Positions 29,058 to 36,438 of a stretch of 53,265 nucleotides of DNA are shown in pieces. The notes below the pieces were generated by a model that had not been told where the DNA came from, did no database searches, and was given only the letters and a program-made list of their open reading frames with translations. The stretch comes from Pirellula sp. (GTDB lineage: Bacteria > Planctomycetota > Planctomycetia > Pirellulales > Pirellulaceae). The DNA is taken from positions 1-53,265 of the forward strand of contig JALOQS010000040.1 of NCBI GenBank assembly GCA_025459355.1, in the 5' to 3' direction. The position numbers and the translations under genes were made by a program. Within the stretch, counting starts at the first letter, position 1; every line of letters begins with the position of its first letter.

Positions 29058-31358
29058 TTATCGCACCACGAATTCTGTAGAATACGGATGGGCATCCAGA
29101 ATCGACTCGTTAAGCGTCGTAAGCATTTCAGGCGTACCCTCGCAGAACAGCAGAAAGTATGGCGGCTCAACGCGACTTCTTAAACGTACCGACAAACGAT
29201 ATCGACCTTTTTGCTTTAACAAACTCGCTGGGATCGTATAACGAGCCGTGCGTGAATCCATGGGCGGGATGCTATGTGCCTCCATTCGAATAAAGGGTGG
29301 GTGATTGAGCACGGTATAGGGGACTGCGCCCGGTCTGAAAAATGGTAGCGGGTCAATGTCCAAGTTAACGGGCAGATACATCTCCCGCTCGGTACCTTTG
29401 ACGTTGGTAATCAAGAACTTAGTTTGAAAGTTAACGAGTTGAGCATCTCTCTGCACCTTGCCCGCTCTGACATCAAGCGAATGGAGGTCACACATGTCAC
29501 CATTGCTGTCCAAATGACCAGATTCCCATAAATGCTCGCCATTGGGACCGACCAAGACGACGTTGAGCCACAGTTGTGGTTGTGCTCCCAATGAACCGCT
29601 AGGCATATTGTGGCCTTCGCTGGTATTGCTAACGATATAGGACACCTTGAGATCTTGACCCGCGACGGGTGCGGTTGCAAAAAATGGCCCATCAATTCGC
29701 GACCCATTTTCTAGTACTTGGATGGCTGTACCTCGCTTCATCGCAACAAGCTTCTGATTTTCCTCCACAACCTTTCGCGCATCGCGTCTTTCTTGAGCTG
29801 ATTGCCATGCGGGCGGAAACGTTGCTCTAATCAAACCTTGAGCGAGAGCACGTTCAAATTGCTCGGTGCCCCAGCCCTGGCGATGATCGAATTGCAGCCA
29901 ATCGCGCGGGTGCCATCGCAAAGCTTTCTCGTTGTGCGGAAATATGCCCGGATGGGCTAACGGTACCGCCGGTCCCCAGAAGATATGGTTGGAGTGTTTT
30001 CGGTCGGTGCGAACTGTCTTTTGGTTTACTTCCGCAGCGGCGCCATACTCATAACCTAACGGCTTGCCAGGCACTGCTCCCATGTGGCAATCCTGACATG
30101 AGATCCCCTTCTTGCATGCTGGTCCTTGCCTATACTGCTGATAAACAATCTCCAAACCTATACCTGGTTGCACAACGACCTGATGACATCCAGCGCAGAA
30201 GGAACTGTCGCTCAATTGTTCGAACTTAATAGCCCCCTGGTGCATCGCTTGAAGGGGACGTTTGTCGTGTGGATCGATCTTGATTTTGAAGTTATCCTTG
30301 TCGGCAATTGCCTTTTCGACTCCGTCTCCCCCAAAGTTTCCAACGACGGGATCATACTCAGAACCAGGCTCAATTCGTCTCTCACCGTTAACTCGGCCGT
30401 AACGTTCCACAACGCGGTGGCAAACGATGCAAGTGATTCCCTCGCGGAAAACAACGGGTGCATCCAACAACGATGCGTCCCGAGGGTAGTTAGATTGCGT
30501 GGCGAGCGGCGCGTGGCATCGCATGCAGAACGTTCCTACGGTACCATTAACAAGCTCCTGCACCTTTTGCTCGAATCGATTGAACATCGGCGAGACAGCG
30601 GAGTATGCATGGCTGCTCACACGCCATTCGTCATAGATCTTTTGATGACACTTGGCGCATTTCATGGCCGAGGGATATCGATCGTTGGCATAGACTTCCC
30701 AGTGAGGATCAACTCCGGGTGGGGTTTGAGATTGGGCTGGAATATTAGTTTTTTGTCGCTCTGCTTCCCGCGCGGCGTCCGGTCCCATGCCCCCCAGCGG
30801 ATCTGCATTTCCTCCCAACCCGTTCTGAAGGTTTCCGCCTGCTCCCCCCAAATCTCCTCCCAGAAGATCATCATCACCCGCAGACGTCGCCGGCCCCTGG
30901 CCTCCTTGAAAGGAAACTACCTTTGTGTGACCGGTAGAATGCATTCGGGGAAACGAAGCACTGTGAGGCGATTGCATTGCGTACGGGTTGGGAGCCGAAA
31001 CGGTCTGGTGGACCAGGTTTTTGGGTAATGACGAATTGCCATCTGCTGCGTATCGATTGATCCGTGTTGGGACACTTTCAGTAAGTGCAGGATCTCGATC
31101 AAGCCATCTCTTGAGTTGATTGATATCGTTGTTCTGTACGTTTTTTTCCGGAGCCACTGGGATTGGTTCCGAATAGACCGGGTTGCTGAATTGAACTTCA
31201 CCTGCACCAAAGTTCCAGGCCCCTCCGTCGGGCGCGGTGCACACTCCAGGAACTTGCCCATGGGCTCGGTAGTCGAGCGTCCAAAAGATGGAAACGGAAA
31301 AGCACAGGATAAACGCTGCGATGCGGCTAAGCTTTGAAAGGCGAATCACTCGGAACAT
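29058..31358 (-). CDS. Exported pentaheme c-type cytochrome
   Basis: The 766-residue protein has a signal peptide (about 1-34), a Gly/Asp-rich linker (about 155-200) and a cytochrome c554-like region. Five CxxCH heme sites are visible: CAKCH near 234, CMRCH near 278, CIVCH near 310, CAGCH near 388 and CQDCH near 421. Numerous other His residues could serve as distal ligands. The C-terminal 250 residues have no heme sites and look like beta-sandwich (LKVSYIVSNTSEGHNMPSG, GRYRLSVRLRSR), perhaps a docking domain. It should move electrons in the periplasm. It is the first gene of the minus-strand run and abuts the outer-membrane barrel gene. A 300-codon plus-strand frame inside it (30126-31028) is only its antisense shadow. 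Confidence 0.93.
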   Translation of the reverse strand: MFRVIRLSKLSRIAAFILCFSVSIFWTLDYRAHGQVPGVCTAPDGGAWNFGAGEVQFSNPVYSEPIPVAPEKNVQNNDINQLKRWLDRDPALTESVPTRINRYAADGNSSLPKNLVHQTVSAPNPYAMQSPHSASFPRMHSTGHTKVVSFQGGQGPATSAGDDDLLGGDLGGAGGNLQNGLGGNADPLGGMGPDAAREAERQKTNIPAQSQTPPGVDPHWEVYANDRYPSAMKCAKCHQKIYDEWRVSSHAYSAVSPMFNRFEQKVQELVNGTVGTFCMRCHAPLATQSNYPRDASLLDAPVVFREGITCIVCHRVVERYGRVNGERRIEPGSEYDPVVGNFGGDGVEKAIADKDNFKIKIDPHDKRPLQAMHQGAIKFEQLSDSSFCAGCHQVVVQPGIGLEIVYQQYRQGPACKKGISCQDCHMGAVPGKPLGYEYGAAAEVNQKTVRTDRKHSNHIFWGPAVPLAHPGIFPHNEKALRWHPRDWLQFDHRQGWGTEQFERALAQGLIRATFPPAWQSAQERRDARKVVEENQKLVAMKRGTAIQVLENGSRIDGPFFATAPVAGQDLKVSYIVSNTSEGHNMPSGSLGAQPQLWLNVVLVGPNGEHLWESGHLDSNGDMCDLHSLDVRAGKVQRDAQLVNFQTKFLITNVKGTEREMYLPVNLDIDPLPFFRPGAVPYTVLNHPPFIRMEAHSIPPMDSRTARYTIPASLLKQKGRYRLSVRLRSRVEPPYFLLFCEGTPEMLTTLNESILDAHPYSTEFVVR

Positions 31359-32274: not shown

Positions 32275-32970
32275 CTAAACTGCGACGGGAGCAGGAATGT
32301 GTGGATGCGGATCGTAACCTAGCAATTCCAAGTCCTCGAACTCGTAGTCTAAGATGCTGGGTCTGTAATTTCGCAAGACAAGCGTTGGCGCAGTTTTCGG
32401 AGTTCTTGATAACTGTTCTGTCGCTTGTTGAATATGGTTGTTGTAAAGATGAACATCGCCAAAGGTGTGTACAAACTCACCAGGTTTTAGACCAGTCGAT
32501 CCCGCCATCATGATGGTAAGCAATGCATAGCACGGCGGTAACGCCATATCTTGAATATCCGCGACGTTCCAGGCGCTCACGATTAGTCGTCTCGAATCGG
32601 GTGTGTGCATAATCTGATGCTGCACCTGAGTGATTTGGTCTACGACGCGTCCATCTGGACACTCCCACGAACGCCATTGTTTTCCATAGACCGGTCCCAA
32701 ATCACCTTGTTCGTCTGCCCACTCATCCCAGATGGAGACGCGATTGTCTTTCAAATAAGAAATGTTCGTGTCACCGCGCAAGAACCAAAGCAACTCGTAC
32801 GCAATGCTTCGTAGATGAAGCTTCTTCGTTGTCAAAAGCGGAAACCCCGCACTCAAATCAAAACGAATCTGTGCACCGAACAAGCTACGAGTCCCCGTGC
32901 CGGTTCGATCGGTTTTTTGATCTCCCTCGAGCATCACTCGTTTCATTAAGTCTAGGTACTGTTGTTCCAT
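32275..32970 (-). CDS. thyA: Thymidylate synthase with an internal 34-codon deletion, probably inactive
   Basis: From ATG 32970 the protein has 231 residues, against 264 for the E. coli enzyme that makes dTMP from dUMP and methylene-tetrahydrofolate. The two ends match the family closely: [44 protein letters not shown], and at the end [12 protein letters not shown] and [14 protein letters not shown]. After the catalytic Cys (C147 in MALPPC, codon 32530-32532) the text jumps to YALLTIMMA. The 34 residues that normally stand between, including the QRSxD phosphate-binding segment and the Asn that recognises uracil (E. coli R166, S167, D169, N177), are missing, while the reading frame stays open. 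An upstream in-frame extension to 33090 is not needed. It is the last gene of the dgcA-dgcN-panD-methyltransferase run. Confidence 0.9.
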
Positions 32971-33092: not shown

Positions 33093-33881
33093 CTAGAGTG
33101 TGGTATCGCCGATTTGCTCAAGTGCAGCCGGGACAAAAAATGATTTGCCCCCATCCGCACGGGCCGATAGGGTCCAATGCCGATCGCTGGTTGCTGTGAC
33201 GCACTCGGCAGGAATCCCCAAAGGCTTAACGATTTCTTTGACCTCGTCCACCGTTAACGCGGCGAGCAAGCTTTGACGAAACAAATCCCGACCACACTCG
33301 TCCTCTCCACCATAAAGCTTTACCAATTCATCCAGTTGCTTTTCGGTTTCAGGTCTGAACAAATCTCGCATGAACAATACCCCGTTCGGACGAAGAACGC
33401 GAATGGACTCTCGGAAGAACTGATCGTGCTCGGGCAAATGATGAACCAATGAGTTGGAGAAAACGGTATCAAAGAAGTTTTTCTCGAAAACCATTTTCTT
33501 CGCATCCCCCTGATGTAACTGTACTCTCGCGATGCACTGATGGATTTCAATGTTGTACCTAGCGATTTCCAGCATCCAATACGAAGCATCAGAGGCCATG
33601 ATTCGAACGGAGGAATCCGTTCGTTTACAAAGCTCTATGGGAATCAATGCTGTTCCTGTGCCGATGTCCAACCAATCCGTTCCTAGTTGGCGGATAGCAA
33701 TCAGGTCCGATGCAAAGCGTTCGTTGACCTCACGGTGATCCATGTCGTTGTAAGCGACTGCTTCGTGTCGATCATCCATAACCTCTGGTTCGAGAATCCG
33801 GTTCAGCATAGGTATAGAAATTTGGTTTGAGTTGCCTGATTCGCTCGCCGACAGATCTGCCTCGGCAATACCAGCAGCCAT
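33093..33881 (-). CDS. Class I SAM-dependent methyltransferase
   Basis: The 262-residue protein has [18 protein letters not shown] (SAM-binding motif I), [15 protein letters not shown] (motif II acidic loop), [19 protein letters not shown] (motif III/IV) and [19 protein letters not shown]. These mark a class I methyltransferase. The start is either 33881, three bases after panD, or the Met at 33809 ([16 protein letters not shown]), which looks like a natural N-terminus. Substrate unknown. It lies within a tight run between panD and thyA and is probably co-transcribed. Confidence 0.85.
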
Positions 33882-33884
33882 CCG

Positions 33885-34301
33885 CTAACAGCAATCTGTC
33901 GTTTCTGGTGCGCTGCGACGCTTCGGGCCGGCAATCTCGCGTCCAGTGTAAGTGATGCGATTCTTATCATCTACAAACACAACCTTGGGCTCAGGAACTC
34001 GCATTTCCGGTGTCGTTTCCGTGAGAAAGCCAAAGGTCGCGATGATAATAATGTCGCCGGGCCGGACGAGGTGAGCAGCCGCGCCATTTATACAGACGTC
34101 GCTCGAACCCTCTTCCCCTAAAATGGCATAGGTTTCCAGTCGAGTGCCGCGGGTAACATTCCAAACATGCACCGATTCAAACGGAGCAATCCCCGCCGCC
34201 AGAAGCAAATCAGGAGGAAGTGTCAGCGAGCCCTCGTAGTGCAAATCAGCTTGCGTGACGGTCGCGCGATGTATCTTGGATCTTAAAAACTTTCGAAGCA
34301 T
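33885..34301 (-). CDS. panD: Aspartate 1-decarboxylase
   Basis: The enzyme converts L-aspartate to beta-alanine for pantothenate and coenzyme A. It has 138 residues, typical of Pan[29 protein letters not shown] contains the G-S pair at about 24-25, where the proenzyme cleaves itself to make the pyruvoyl cofactor. Conserved blocks [43 protein letters not shown] and [12 protein letters not shown] are present. It starts 18 bases after the DUF1611 gene and is followed closely by the methyltransferase. Other pan genes are not nearby. Confidence 0.97.
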
Positions 34302-34319: not shown

Positions 34320-35399
34320 CTATTGGTTTTTACTAGCCATTCCTTCGACAGTTTTTAGCAGTTCGTTTGCACCGTATCGAACGACATCTGACGTGGGAAG
34401 GCCTGTTTCCTTTTCTGTTTTCCGGATTTCAAAACGTGCTTCTTCATCCGTCATGCCGAACGTGTTCAGTGCAATACAATCAACTTTTGCAGGGAAGAAG
34501 ACCCCGCCCGCTCGGGCTACGCATTCGTACATCTGCACGACTTCCGTCAACGCCGGAATCTTGGCCCACGGTGTTCCTTTAATCGTGGTCCTCGAGCAGG
34601 AGTGAACGAGCACCATACTAGTGGGCTGGGAACCTCTTATCAACGGCAGCGTCGCTGTGGAAGCTGGATTCAAAAACGAACCTTGCCCCTCGATCCAAAC
34701 GACATCCATCCCCGTCGCGCATTCCATAAGGGTTTGTTGAACAGCCCCTGTCGCATAATCAATACGGACGGCATCGAGCGGGATACCATCTCCCTCCAGC
34801 ATAATGCCGGTTTGACCAGTCGCCATGAATTTTGATTTCCAGCCAGCACTGAGCGCTGCGCGATGGAATTCGATCGCGGCTGTCATCTTGCCAATCGACA
34901 TGTCTGTACCCACAAACAACACGCGACGGCATGGCAAAAGCCGGGCTGAGCCGTTTCCAACACTTAAACCCTCAGGCTCTTTCCTGATGTCCCAGACCCA
35001 TTGACCCGCTCGCAACAAAGGCTTTAGCCGATCGTGATTCGCGAGAGGCATGTGCAAGCCGTTCATGATGTTAAGTCCGGCTGCAACGGCTGCTTCGAGT
35101 TCGACAAACCAATCCTCTGGCAACCGTCCCCCACCAGGCGCGATACCAATGGCAAGCGTTTCGGCTCCATAGGCAATCGCATCCTTCATCGATGCGACCA
35201 CTGGAACATGGTGAGGAAGAGGAATTCTAGTCACCTCTTCAGCCGACTGGCCTGCTTCCTGTCGATCGATAACGACCACCACGCGATGACCCGCGTAACG
35301 CAATAACGACAATCCCGTCTTTCCATTTTCGGATCTCATCCCGCCGTGCATCAACACGGCTAGTTTATCGTCCGGATTATAAAAGCTATGACTCAACAT
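34320..35399 (-). CDS. DUF1611 protein, DgcN-like (N-acyltransferase of D-glutamate use)
   Basis: From ATG 35399 the protein has 359 residues; a longer start at 35426 is possible. It has LAIGIAPGGGRLPEDW, GLNIMNGLHMPLA, a P-loop-like FVGTDMSIGKMTAAIEFHRA at about 162-181 and ATGQTGIMLEGDGIPLDAVR. This is the DUF1611 family. A described member, DgcN, N-acetylates D-glutamate, with the partner DgcA, an enolase-superfamily racemase, acting on N-acetyl-D-glutamate. Here the upstream gene is an enolase-superfamily member and overlaps this one by 14 bases, the same pairing. I infer the same or a related pathway. The specific substrate is not proven. Confidence 0.82.
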   Translation of the reverse strand: MLSHSFYNPDDKLAVLMHGGMRSENGKTGLSLLRYAGHRVVVVIDRQEAGQSAEEVTRIPLPHHVPVVASMKDAIAYGAETLAIGIAPGGGRLPEDWFVELEAAVAAGLNIMNGLHMPLANHDRLKPLLRAGQWVWDIRKEPEGLSVGNGSARLLPCRRVLFVGTDMSIGKMTAAIEFHRAALSAGWKSKFMATGQTGIMLEGDGIPLDAVRIDYATGAVQQTLMECATGMDVVWIEGQGSFLNPASTATLPLIRGSQPTSMVLVHSCSRTTIKGTPWAKIPALTEVVQMYECVARAGGVFFPAKVDCIALNTFGMTDEEARFEIRKTEKETGLPTSDVVRYGANELLKTVEGMASKNQ

Positions 35400-36438
35400 A
35401 ATCCACTCCCAATCCAGGCTTATCACTATTCAACAGATAACCGTCGTCAAACTCCAACCCGCTGGTCGGATCATTGGTGAGATTCAAATGGCTATCGAGA
35501 TCGATAAAGTCGACTAACGATGCGAGCTGATGGGCGGCTGCATTACCGAGAGCCGTGTTGCCATAACATCCAAGCATCGTTTGAAGATTCATTGATCTGG
35601 CGACCGCCAACATTCTTAGCGCTTCGGATAGCCCGCCACATTTCGTGAGCTTGATATTCACGCCATGGCAATGCCTCCCATGTTGAGCAATCTGTTCTGA
35701 ATTGCAACAACTTTCATCCAAGAAGATCGGTAGCTGAGTGCGATCGAATAACTCGGGGAAGCTCGCTACGTTCTCAGGCGCGAGTGGTTGTTCGATGTGA
35801 ACAACACCTCTCGCTCGGAGCCACTCGGACATCTCGATCGCTTGTTCGAGATTCCAACCTCCATTGGCATCAACTCCGATGTAGGCGTGTGCTGGGGCGA
35901 TCTCACGAATGGCATCAAACATGACTTGGTCTGAGTGGATGCCCGAGGGTGAGCCCATTTTGATCTTGATACCGCGGATGGTTCCGAGTTCCAGCCAAGC
36001 CTTTAGTCTATCGACTGCCCCCTGCGGCGTGTTAAGACCGATCGTAACGGAAATGGGGCTTCTCGGGCGAGGCTTGATTCCTAGCAATTTCCAAACGGGA
36101 ATCTTTAACGAATGGCCTGCCCAATCAAAGAGCGCCATATCGATTGCGTTCATAACGGATGAGCCGATGCCCGATTCGATCAATGATTCTTCGATTCCGT
36201 GTCGGTCGAACGGATCACACGTCTCGATCGCAACGGATGCTGTTTCGATATCGGCCAATAGCTTCGGCAGTGACTCGGAATGGCTCGGGATATCGAACTC
36301 GGCCGCTTCGCCTAAACCGACCGCACCATATCCCTGAATCGCAATGATTACCGAATGCGATGAAGCCGCTTTTCCACGACTTATCGCCAACGCAATTTTT
36401 TTTTGCAACTCGAATGTGCGATAAGAGAGAGTTAACAT
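35386..36438 (-). CDS. Enolase-superfamily dipeptide epimerase, DgcA-like
   Basis: The 350-residue protein has the mandelate-racemase/muconate-lactonising fold of the enolase superfamily. GIKIKMG holds the acid/base Lys pair (K158, K160), D190, E216 and D241 are the metal ligands (GVDANGGW, HIEQPL, LDESC), and NIKLTKCGG supplies the opposite Lys (263-266 region). A DLD motif at about 313-315 is typical of dipeptide epimerases that act on L-Ala-D/L-Glu-like substrates. With the overlapping DUF1611 gene it matches the dgcA-dgcN pair for D-glutamate breakdown. The alternative is recycling of peptidoglycan peptides by L-Ala-D/L-Glu epimerisation. It is the first gene of the run. Confidence 0.85.
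   Translation of the reverse strand: MLTLSYRTFELQKKIALAISRGKAASSHSVIIAIQGYGAVGLGEAAEFDIPSHSESLPKLLADIETASVAIETCDPFDRHGIEESLIESGIGSSVMNAIDMALFDWAGHSLKIPVWKLLGIKPRPRSPISVTIGLNTPQGAVDRLKAWLELGTIRGIKIKMGSPSGIHSDQVMFDAIREIAPAHAYIGVDANGGWNLEQAIEMSEWLRARGVVHIEQPLAPENVASFPELFDRTQLPIFLDESCCNSEQIAQHGRHCHGVNIKLTKCGGLSEALRMLAVARSMNLQTMLGCYGNTALGNAAAHQLASLVDFIDLDSHLNLTNDPTSGLEFDDGYLLNSDKPGLGVDYVES

Follow-up and report, generated by a model that had tools for sequence, protein, structure and literature searches.

An in-frame deletion of 34 codons beside the catalytic cysteine of thyA in a draft genome of Pirellula

The thyA gene in a draft genome of Pirellula sp. lacks 34 codons, in frame, directly after the codon for the catalytic cysteine of thymidylate synthase (ThyA). 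The reading that we hold to be probable is that the native thyA was recently inactivated by a single in-frame deletion of 102 bases, and that the cell, or the strain, is a thymidine auxotroph which lives by salvage. The stretch of DNA that was analysed (the window; 53,265 nucleotides) is an entire contig (C226; JALOQS010000040.1) of the draft genome (G000; assembly GCA_025459355.1), which comprises 5,097,261 bases in 459 contigs and is 76.53% complete and 0.6% contaminated.

The thyA gene and the missing segment

The Pfam profile Thymidylat_synt (PF00303) matches the predicted protein in two stretches, profile positions 1–147 and 183–266, with a score of 316 bits (the curated cut-off is 24.3) and with profile positions 148–182 missing. 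When aligned with E. coli ThyA, the window protein matches through Cys146 and picks up again at Tyr181, i.e., residues 147–180 (34 residues) are missing. The catalytic cysteine and the equivalents of Arg126 and Arg127 have been retained (C147, R127 and R128 in window numbering), and the dUMP-binding segment with QRSxD and Asn177, which is invariant in 26 relatives, is missing. The 34-codon gap is a genuine feature of the assembled sequence. An earlier reading of the DNA, made from its letters alone (the sequence-only reading), had described a precise loss of 34 codons beside the catalytic cysteine that took with it the QRSxD motif and the uracil-binding Asn, and the alignments confirm both points. 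The coordinates of the gene, its parts and the other genes of interest are given in Table 1.

Table 1. Location of thyA, its junction, its neighbours and the salvage genes in the draft genome (positions are those of the window unless a contig is named)
Feature	Position	Strand	Remarks
thyA open frame	32275-32970	minus	231 codons; translation begins MEQQYLDL
thyA N-terminal part	32530..32970	minus	codons 1-147, the last being the catalytic Cys (E. coli Cys146)
Deletion junction	32529..32530	minus	without 102 bases found in relatives (34 codons, E. coli residues 147-180)
thyA C-terminal part	32278..32529	minus	codons 148-231, the first residue being the equivalent of E. coli Tyr181
thyA stop codon	32275..32277	minus	
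Gene upstream of thyA, methyltransferase-like	33093..33881	minus	named by eye; neighbour in 4/4 near relatives checked
panD, aspartate 1-decarboxylase	33885..34301	minus	neighbour in 4/4 near relatives checked
Thymidine kinase, open frame	G000:C53:47811-48362		
NupC-type transporter	G000:C15:8590-9240		NupC C-terminal domain

Of the 34 lost positions, 24 are invariant in the 26 relatives. These include, in the numbering of the intact ThyA of a genus mate (G006), H148, Q166, R167, S168, A169, D170 and N178, which correspond to E. coli residues 147, 165–169 and 177; in E. coli numbering, the loss thus takes in Arg166, Ser167, Asp169 and Asn177. Two sources give Arg166 a role in binding the phosphate and in forming the thiolate, and the Asn a role in recognition of the base (PMC6005164; PMC6754364); a table in the former gives that Asn as 178 in its E. 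coli column, and the latter describes simulations of ThyA from Mycobacterium tuberculosis. Judging by entry titles, the PDB contains E. coli structures of mutants at positions 166, 167, 169 and 177.

In a model of the intact G006 protein, used as a control, the segment forms two β-strands (149–156 and 159–170) and the start of a helix (174–192). The model of the short ThyA has a mean pLDDT of 72.1 and a pTM of 0.71, compared with 79.7 and 0.83 for the control. Residues 131–140 are modelled with a pLDDT of 35 in the short form versus 63 in the control, and the block that contains the cysteine (141–150) is no worse in the short form (56 versus 52). In Foldseek searches, thymidylate synthases are the best matches for both models, with query-normalised TM-scores of up to 0.81 (short form) and 0.87 (control). 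Because prediction programs are lenient towards deletions, the comparison of models is counted as supporting evidence only.

With 34 active-site residues missing, the short protein would not be expected to have the family's defining activity, the conversion of dUMP to dTMP. The lost residues and strands make it very probable that the short ThyA is inactive and that the native gene is present in the window as a null allele.

Comparison with relatives

ThyA was matched in 23 of the 26 other genomes of the genus, and in all 18 of those with a completeness of 90% or more and a contamination of 5% or less; no ThyA match was found in G003, G004 and G017, whose genomes are 77–83% complete. Alignment with related ThyA proteins, which the sequence-only reading had put forward as a check, was carried out, and every genus mate that has ThyA (23/23) keeps the missing segment. 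The span from edge to edge is 102 bases in all 27 intact relatives, four of which belong to other families of the order. The window ThyA is up to 82% identical to the relatives compared, with both halves aligning. In the three best named relatives (Pirellula or Planctomycetota records), 795 bases (265 codons) align to residues 1–231 of the window protein, with 34 additional codons, and of 580 confirmed matches the best 80 all exceed the window gene in length, by at least 34 codons over the matched part.

A DNA pattern was made for the junction, which fits only Pro-Cys-[His/Tyr]-Ala-Leu-[Leu/Phe] plus Met, Leu and Gly at fixed distances; it finds the window gene once and gave zero matches in 100 shuffles. 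There were no matches to this pattern in genome_contigs (84,980 genomes) and viral_contigs, two collections of contigs of at least 3,000 bases that may leave out G000 itself or very near records. Of all the genomes examined, only G000 has the deletion.

The thyA of the window is the native, syntenic chromosomal copy: the genes beside it are the neighbours of thyA in near relatives too (Table 1).

Two other places in the window were noted. At 34320-36438 there are two adjoining genes like those for DgcN and DgcA (the families of an N-acetyltransferase and an N-acetyl-D-Glu racemase), both of which score under the NCBIfam cut-offs. Several CxxCH-type motifs, seen by eye, lie in a long open frame at 29058-31358, which could encode a multihaem cytochrome and is followed by a frame of 847 codons.

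A different broken thyA was seen in one genus mate, G009, which has an intact gene on contig C113 and a broken second copy on contig C1 (L152:6759-7109). The latter consists of the equivalents of bases 213–488 and 721–795 of the intact gene, adjoining each other, and lies next to a copy of a gene that, by eye, is methyltransferase-like; the arrangement looks like the remains of a duplicated segment that held both genes and then decayed.

How and when the segment was lost

The sequence-only reading had proposed a deletion between direct repeats of the form (C/T)A(C/T)GCATTG, of which one copy would remain. The stretch TATGCATTG is present at the junction, as that reading had noted. The repeat was found at the left edge in none of the 23 genus mates with ThyA: the codon that follows the His codon of this edge (CAY) is for Leu or Thr in all 23, and an Ala codon stands there in G026 alone, a genome from a different family of the order. 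At the junction, 14 of the 27 relatives have no contiguous homology and the other 13 have 1 base of it. Recombination between such repeats was therefore rejected for the genus. The longest exact repeat within 20 bases of the edges is 4–8 bases in the relatives and is in register with the junction only in G012 (4 bases). In some relatives (e.g. G022), one GCATTG stands 15 bases ahead of the left edge and another at the right edge; had the deletion run between these two copies, its ends would lie at other positions. A non-homologous deletion or a slip in replication would fit better than recombination between repeats, to judge by the bases of the relatives rather than by those of the ancestor itself.

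The remainder of the gene has changed little. The nonsynonymous distance of the G000 thyA is 0.176 to the outgroup G021 (0.175–0.193 for the four nearest relatives) and 0.185 to the outgroup G009 (0.189–0.218 for the same four), synonymous sites being saturated in most of these comparisons. The G000 protein breaks four of the 114 columns that are invariant in the other 22 sequences of the genus, each of which breaks 0–1 (G041, whose sequence is cut by the end of a contig, was left out). All four are conservative substitutions (M to I, E to D twice, L to F), and for three of them the new residue also occurs in ThyA from E. coli, Elizabethkingia or G026. The broken columns hint at some relaxation of the remaining gene. 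As the sequence that remains is little decayed, the loss looks recent, and recent loss is the most likely reading of these comparisons. In the complete absence of constraint, the chance of a deletion staying in frame is one in three.

Is the deletion an artefact?

The alternative that survives best, though we hold it to be unlikely, is that the thyA of the species is intact and that the contig represents a chimeric read, a product of amplification or a rare strain. Such an origin would suit a draft genome in 459 contigs that is 76.5% complete, a junction seen in no other genome examined, a gene present in every one of the 18 most complete genomes of the genus, and a remainder of thyA with so little relaxation. 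However, the exact repeats near the edges in relatives are only 4–8 bases long, which leaves nothing for a k-mer assembler to collapse; the lack of long repeats thus argues against a collapsed assembly graph. The rest of the window also speaks against faulty sequence. Nine other proteins of the window were scanned, and four of them (IlvA, transketolase, a fumarase/aspartase-like protein and PanD) each match a close family in a single stretch of nearly full length. The only matches of the remaining five are to distant families, and these proteins are uninformative either way. Similarly, the four syntenic neighbours of thyA (58–90% identity; two found in 4/4 relatives and two in 2/4) align with gaps of only 0–3 residues.

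The source of dTMP

The sequence-only reading had pointed out that a cell with this gene would have to make dTMP by another route, for example by ThyX. The genome search that it had suggested for thyX or a second thyA was run: neither ThyX (with default and relaxed thresholds) nor a second thyA was found in G000, in a genome that is 76.5% complete. Control genomes gave positives for both families (9/14 for ThyA and 6/14 for ThyX). In other families of the order, 15 genomes were searched; ThyX was found in 11 of them and ThyA in the remaining four. The one genus mate with a ThyX match, G006 (L153, G006:C1:4882386-4883012), has an intact ThyA as well.

A bypass of the dead thyA by ThyX, or by an intact second thyA, could lie in the unrecovered quarter of the genome, an explanation that we regard as quite improbable. 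With G000 76.5% complete there is room for such a gene, and ThyX does replace ThyA in the 11 genomes just mentioned and occurs together with it in G006. Within the genus, however, ThyX is present in only one of 26 mates, and a second piece of thyA likewise in only one (G009), where it is itself broken.

Salvage is likelier than a bypass by ThyX. G000 has a thymidine kinase (Tdk) and a NupC-type transporter (Table 1), each of which is also found in 15 of the 16 genus mates G001–G016. With both genes so widespread in the genus, their presence shows a capacity for salvage and not a dependence on it. According to a study in comparative genomics (PMC1971073), tdk is present in those few bacteria that lack both ThyA and ThyX. 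A second source (PMC5476696) describes the use of outside thymidine by thyA mutants of Haemophilus influenzae and S. aureus, with NupC as the proposed importer, and reports in-frame deletions of thyA among the null alleles of S. aureus.

The events behind the preferred reading, recent inactivation of the native gene followed by salvage, would then be as follows. One in-frame deletion of 102 bases would have removed the segment directly after the catalytic cysteine; ThyA would have lost its dUMP-binding residues, two core β-strands and the start of a helix, and with them its activity; dTMP would be made from imported thymidine, taken up by NupC and phosphorylated by Tdk. The auxotrophy would be either fixed in the species or a variant in the population that was sampled.

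Dihydrofolate reductase

The loss of dihydrofolate reductase (DHFR) is allowed, though not required, once ThyA is dead. DHFR was not found in G000 (76.5% complete), whereas 24 of the 26 genus mates have one; the two without a match are G004 and G011. G004 has neither a ThyA nor a DHFR match.

In four near relatives, folA sits between a pair of ABC transporter genes and a gene for an FAD oxidoreductase. The transporter pair is on contig C77 of G000, and the adjacent place is occupied by other genes (isomerase-like and RecG-like helicase, by eye); the best G000 match to the FAD oxidoreductase of this neighbourhood has 31% identity and is not close. By this gene order, the neighbourhood of folA is rearranged in G000. 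The order shared by the four relatives was not seen in G002, G009, G014 or G016, in stretches that were compared among themselves. A missing DHFR would be in keeping with a cell for which ThyA is no longer necessary, in a genome from which about a quarter is absent. The further-reaching reading, of a Pirellula lineage caught just after it abandoned de novo synthesis of thymidylate, with thyA dead, DHFR gone and a life on thymidine that other organisms around it release, is distinctly unlikely as we judge it.

A retained or new function of the short protein

It is exceedingly improbable that the short protein is functional, be it as a shortened enzyme or in some other role, retained or newly gained: the frame is open, the remainder is little decayed and Foldseek still matches it to thymidylate synthases, but the core strands and dUMP-binding residues invariant in 26 relatives are missing, the short form was found in no other genome examined, and the new use for the remnant that the sequence-only reading had offered as a possibility has no positive evidence.

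Known systems and meaning for the organism

The window protein belongs to the ThyA family (PF00303; NCBIfam NF002497, TIGR03284) in that both of its halves align and its gene lies in the native neighbourhood; it differs from the family in lacking the 34 active-site residues. In-frame null alleles of thyA are already known from other bacteria, e.g. Staphylococcus aureus. As described in PMC5476696, the alleles of thymidine-dependent S. aureus and H. influenzae resemble the present one in that the change is in frame and in that uptake plus kinase would be the expected rescue. They differ in that the present case is a draft genome of a Pirellula-like bacterium for which neither selection by antifolates nor a phenotype is known. 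Mycoplasma hyopneumoniae and Ureaplasma parvum have small, host-bound genomes; the present one, in contrast, is a draft of 5.1 Mb in which thyA has apparently only just been broken. What it has in common with these two species is a tdk in a recovered genome in which no working thymidylate synthase was found (PMC1971073). No deletion of thyA in a planctomycete was found in the literature searched, which comprised titles, openings of abstracts and partial listings.

Should the deletion be an artefact, it would caution against reading auxotrophy out of one draft genome. A variant in a population would add another case to the known conditional auxotrophs. If the deletion is fixed, this would be a planctomycete with a large genome that is dependent on external thymidine; this would point to an exchange of nucleosides between members of the community and could help to explain why some such bacteria resist cultivation.
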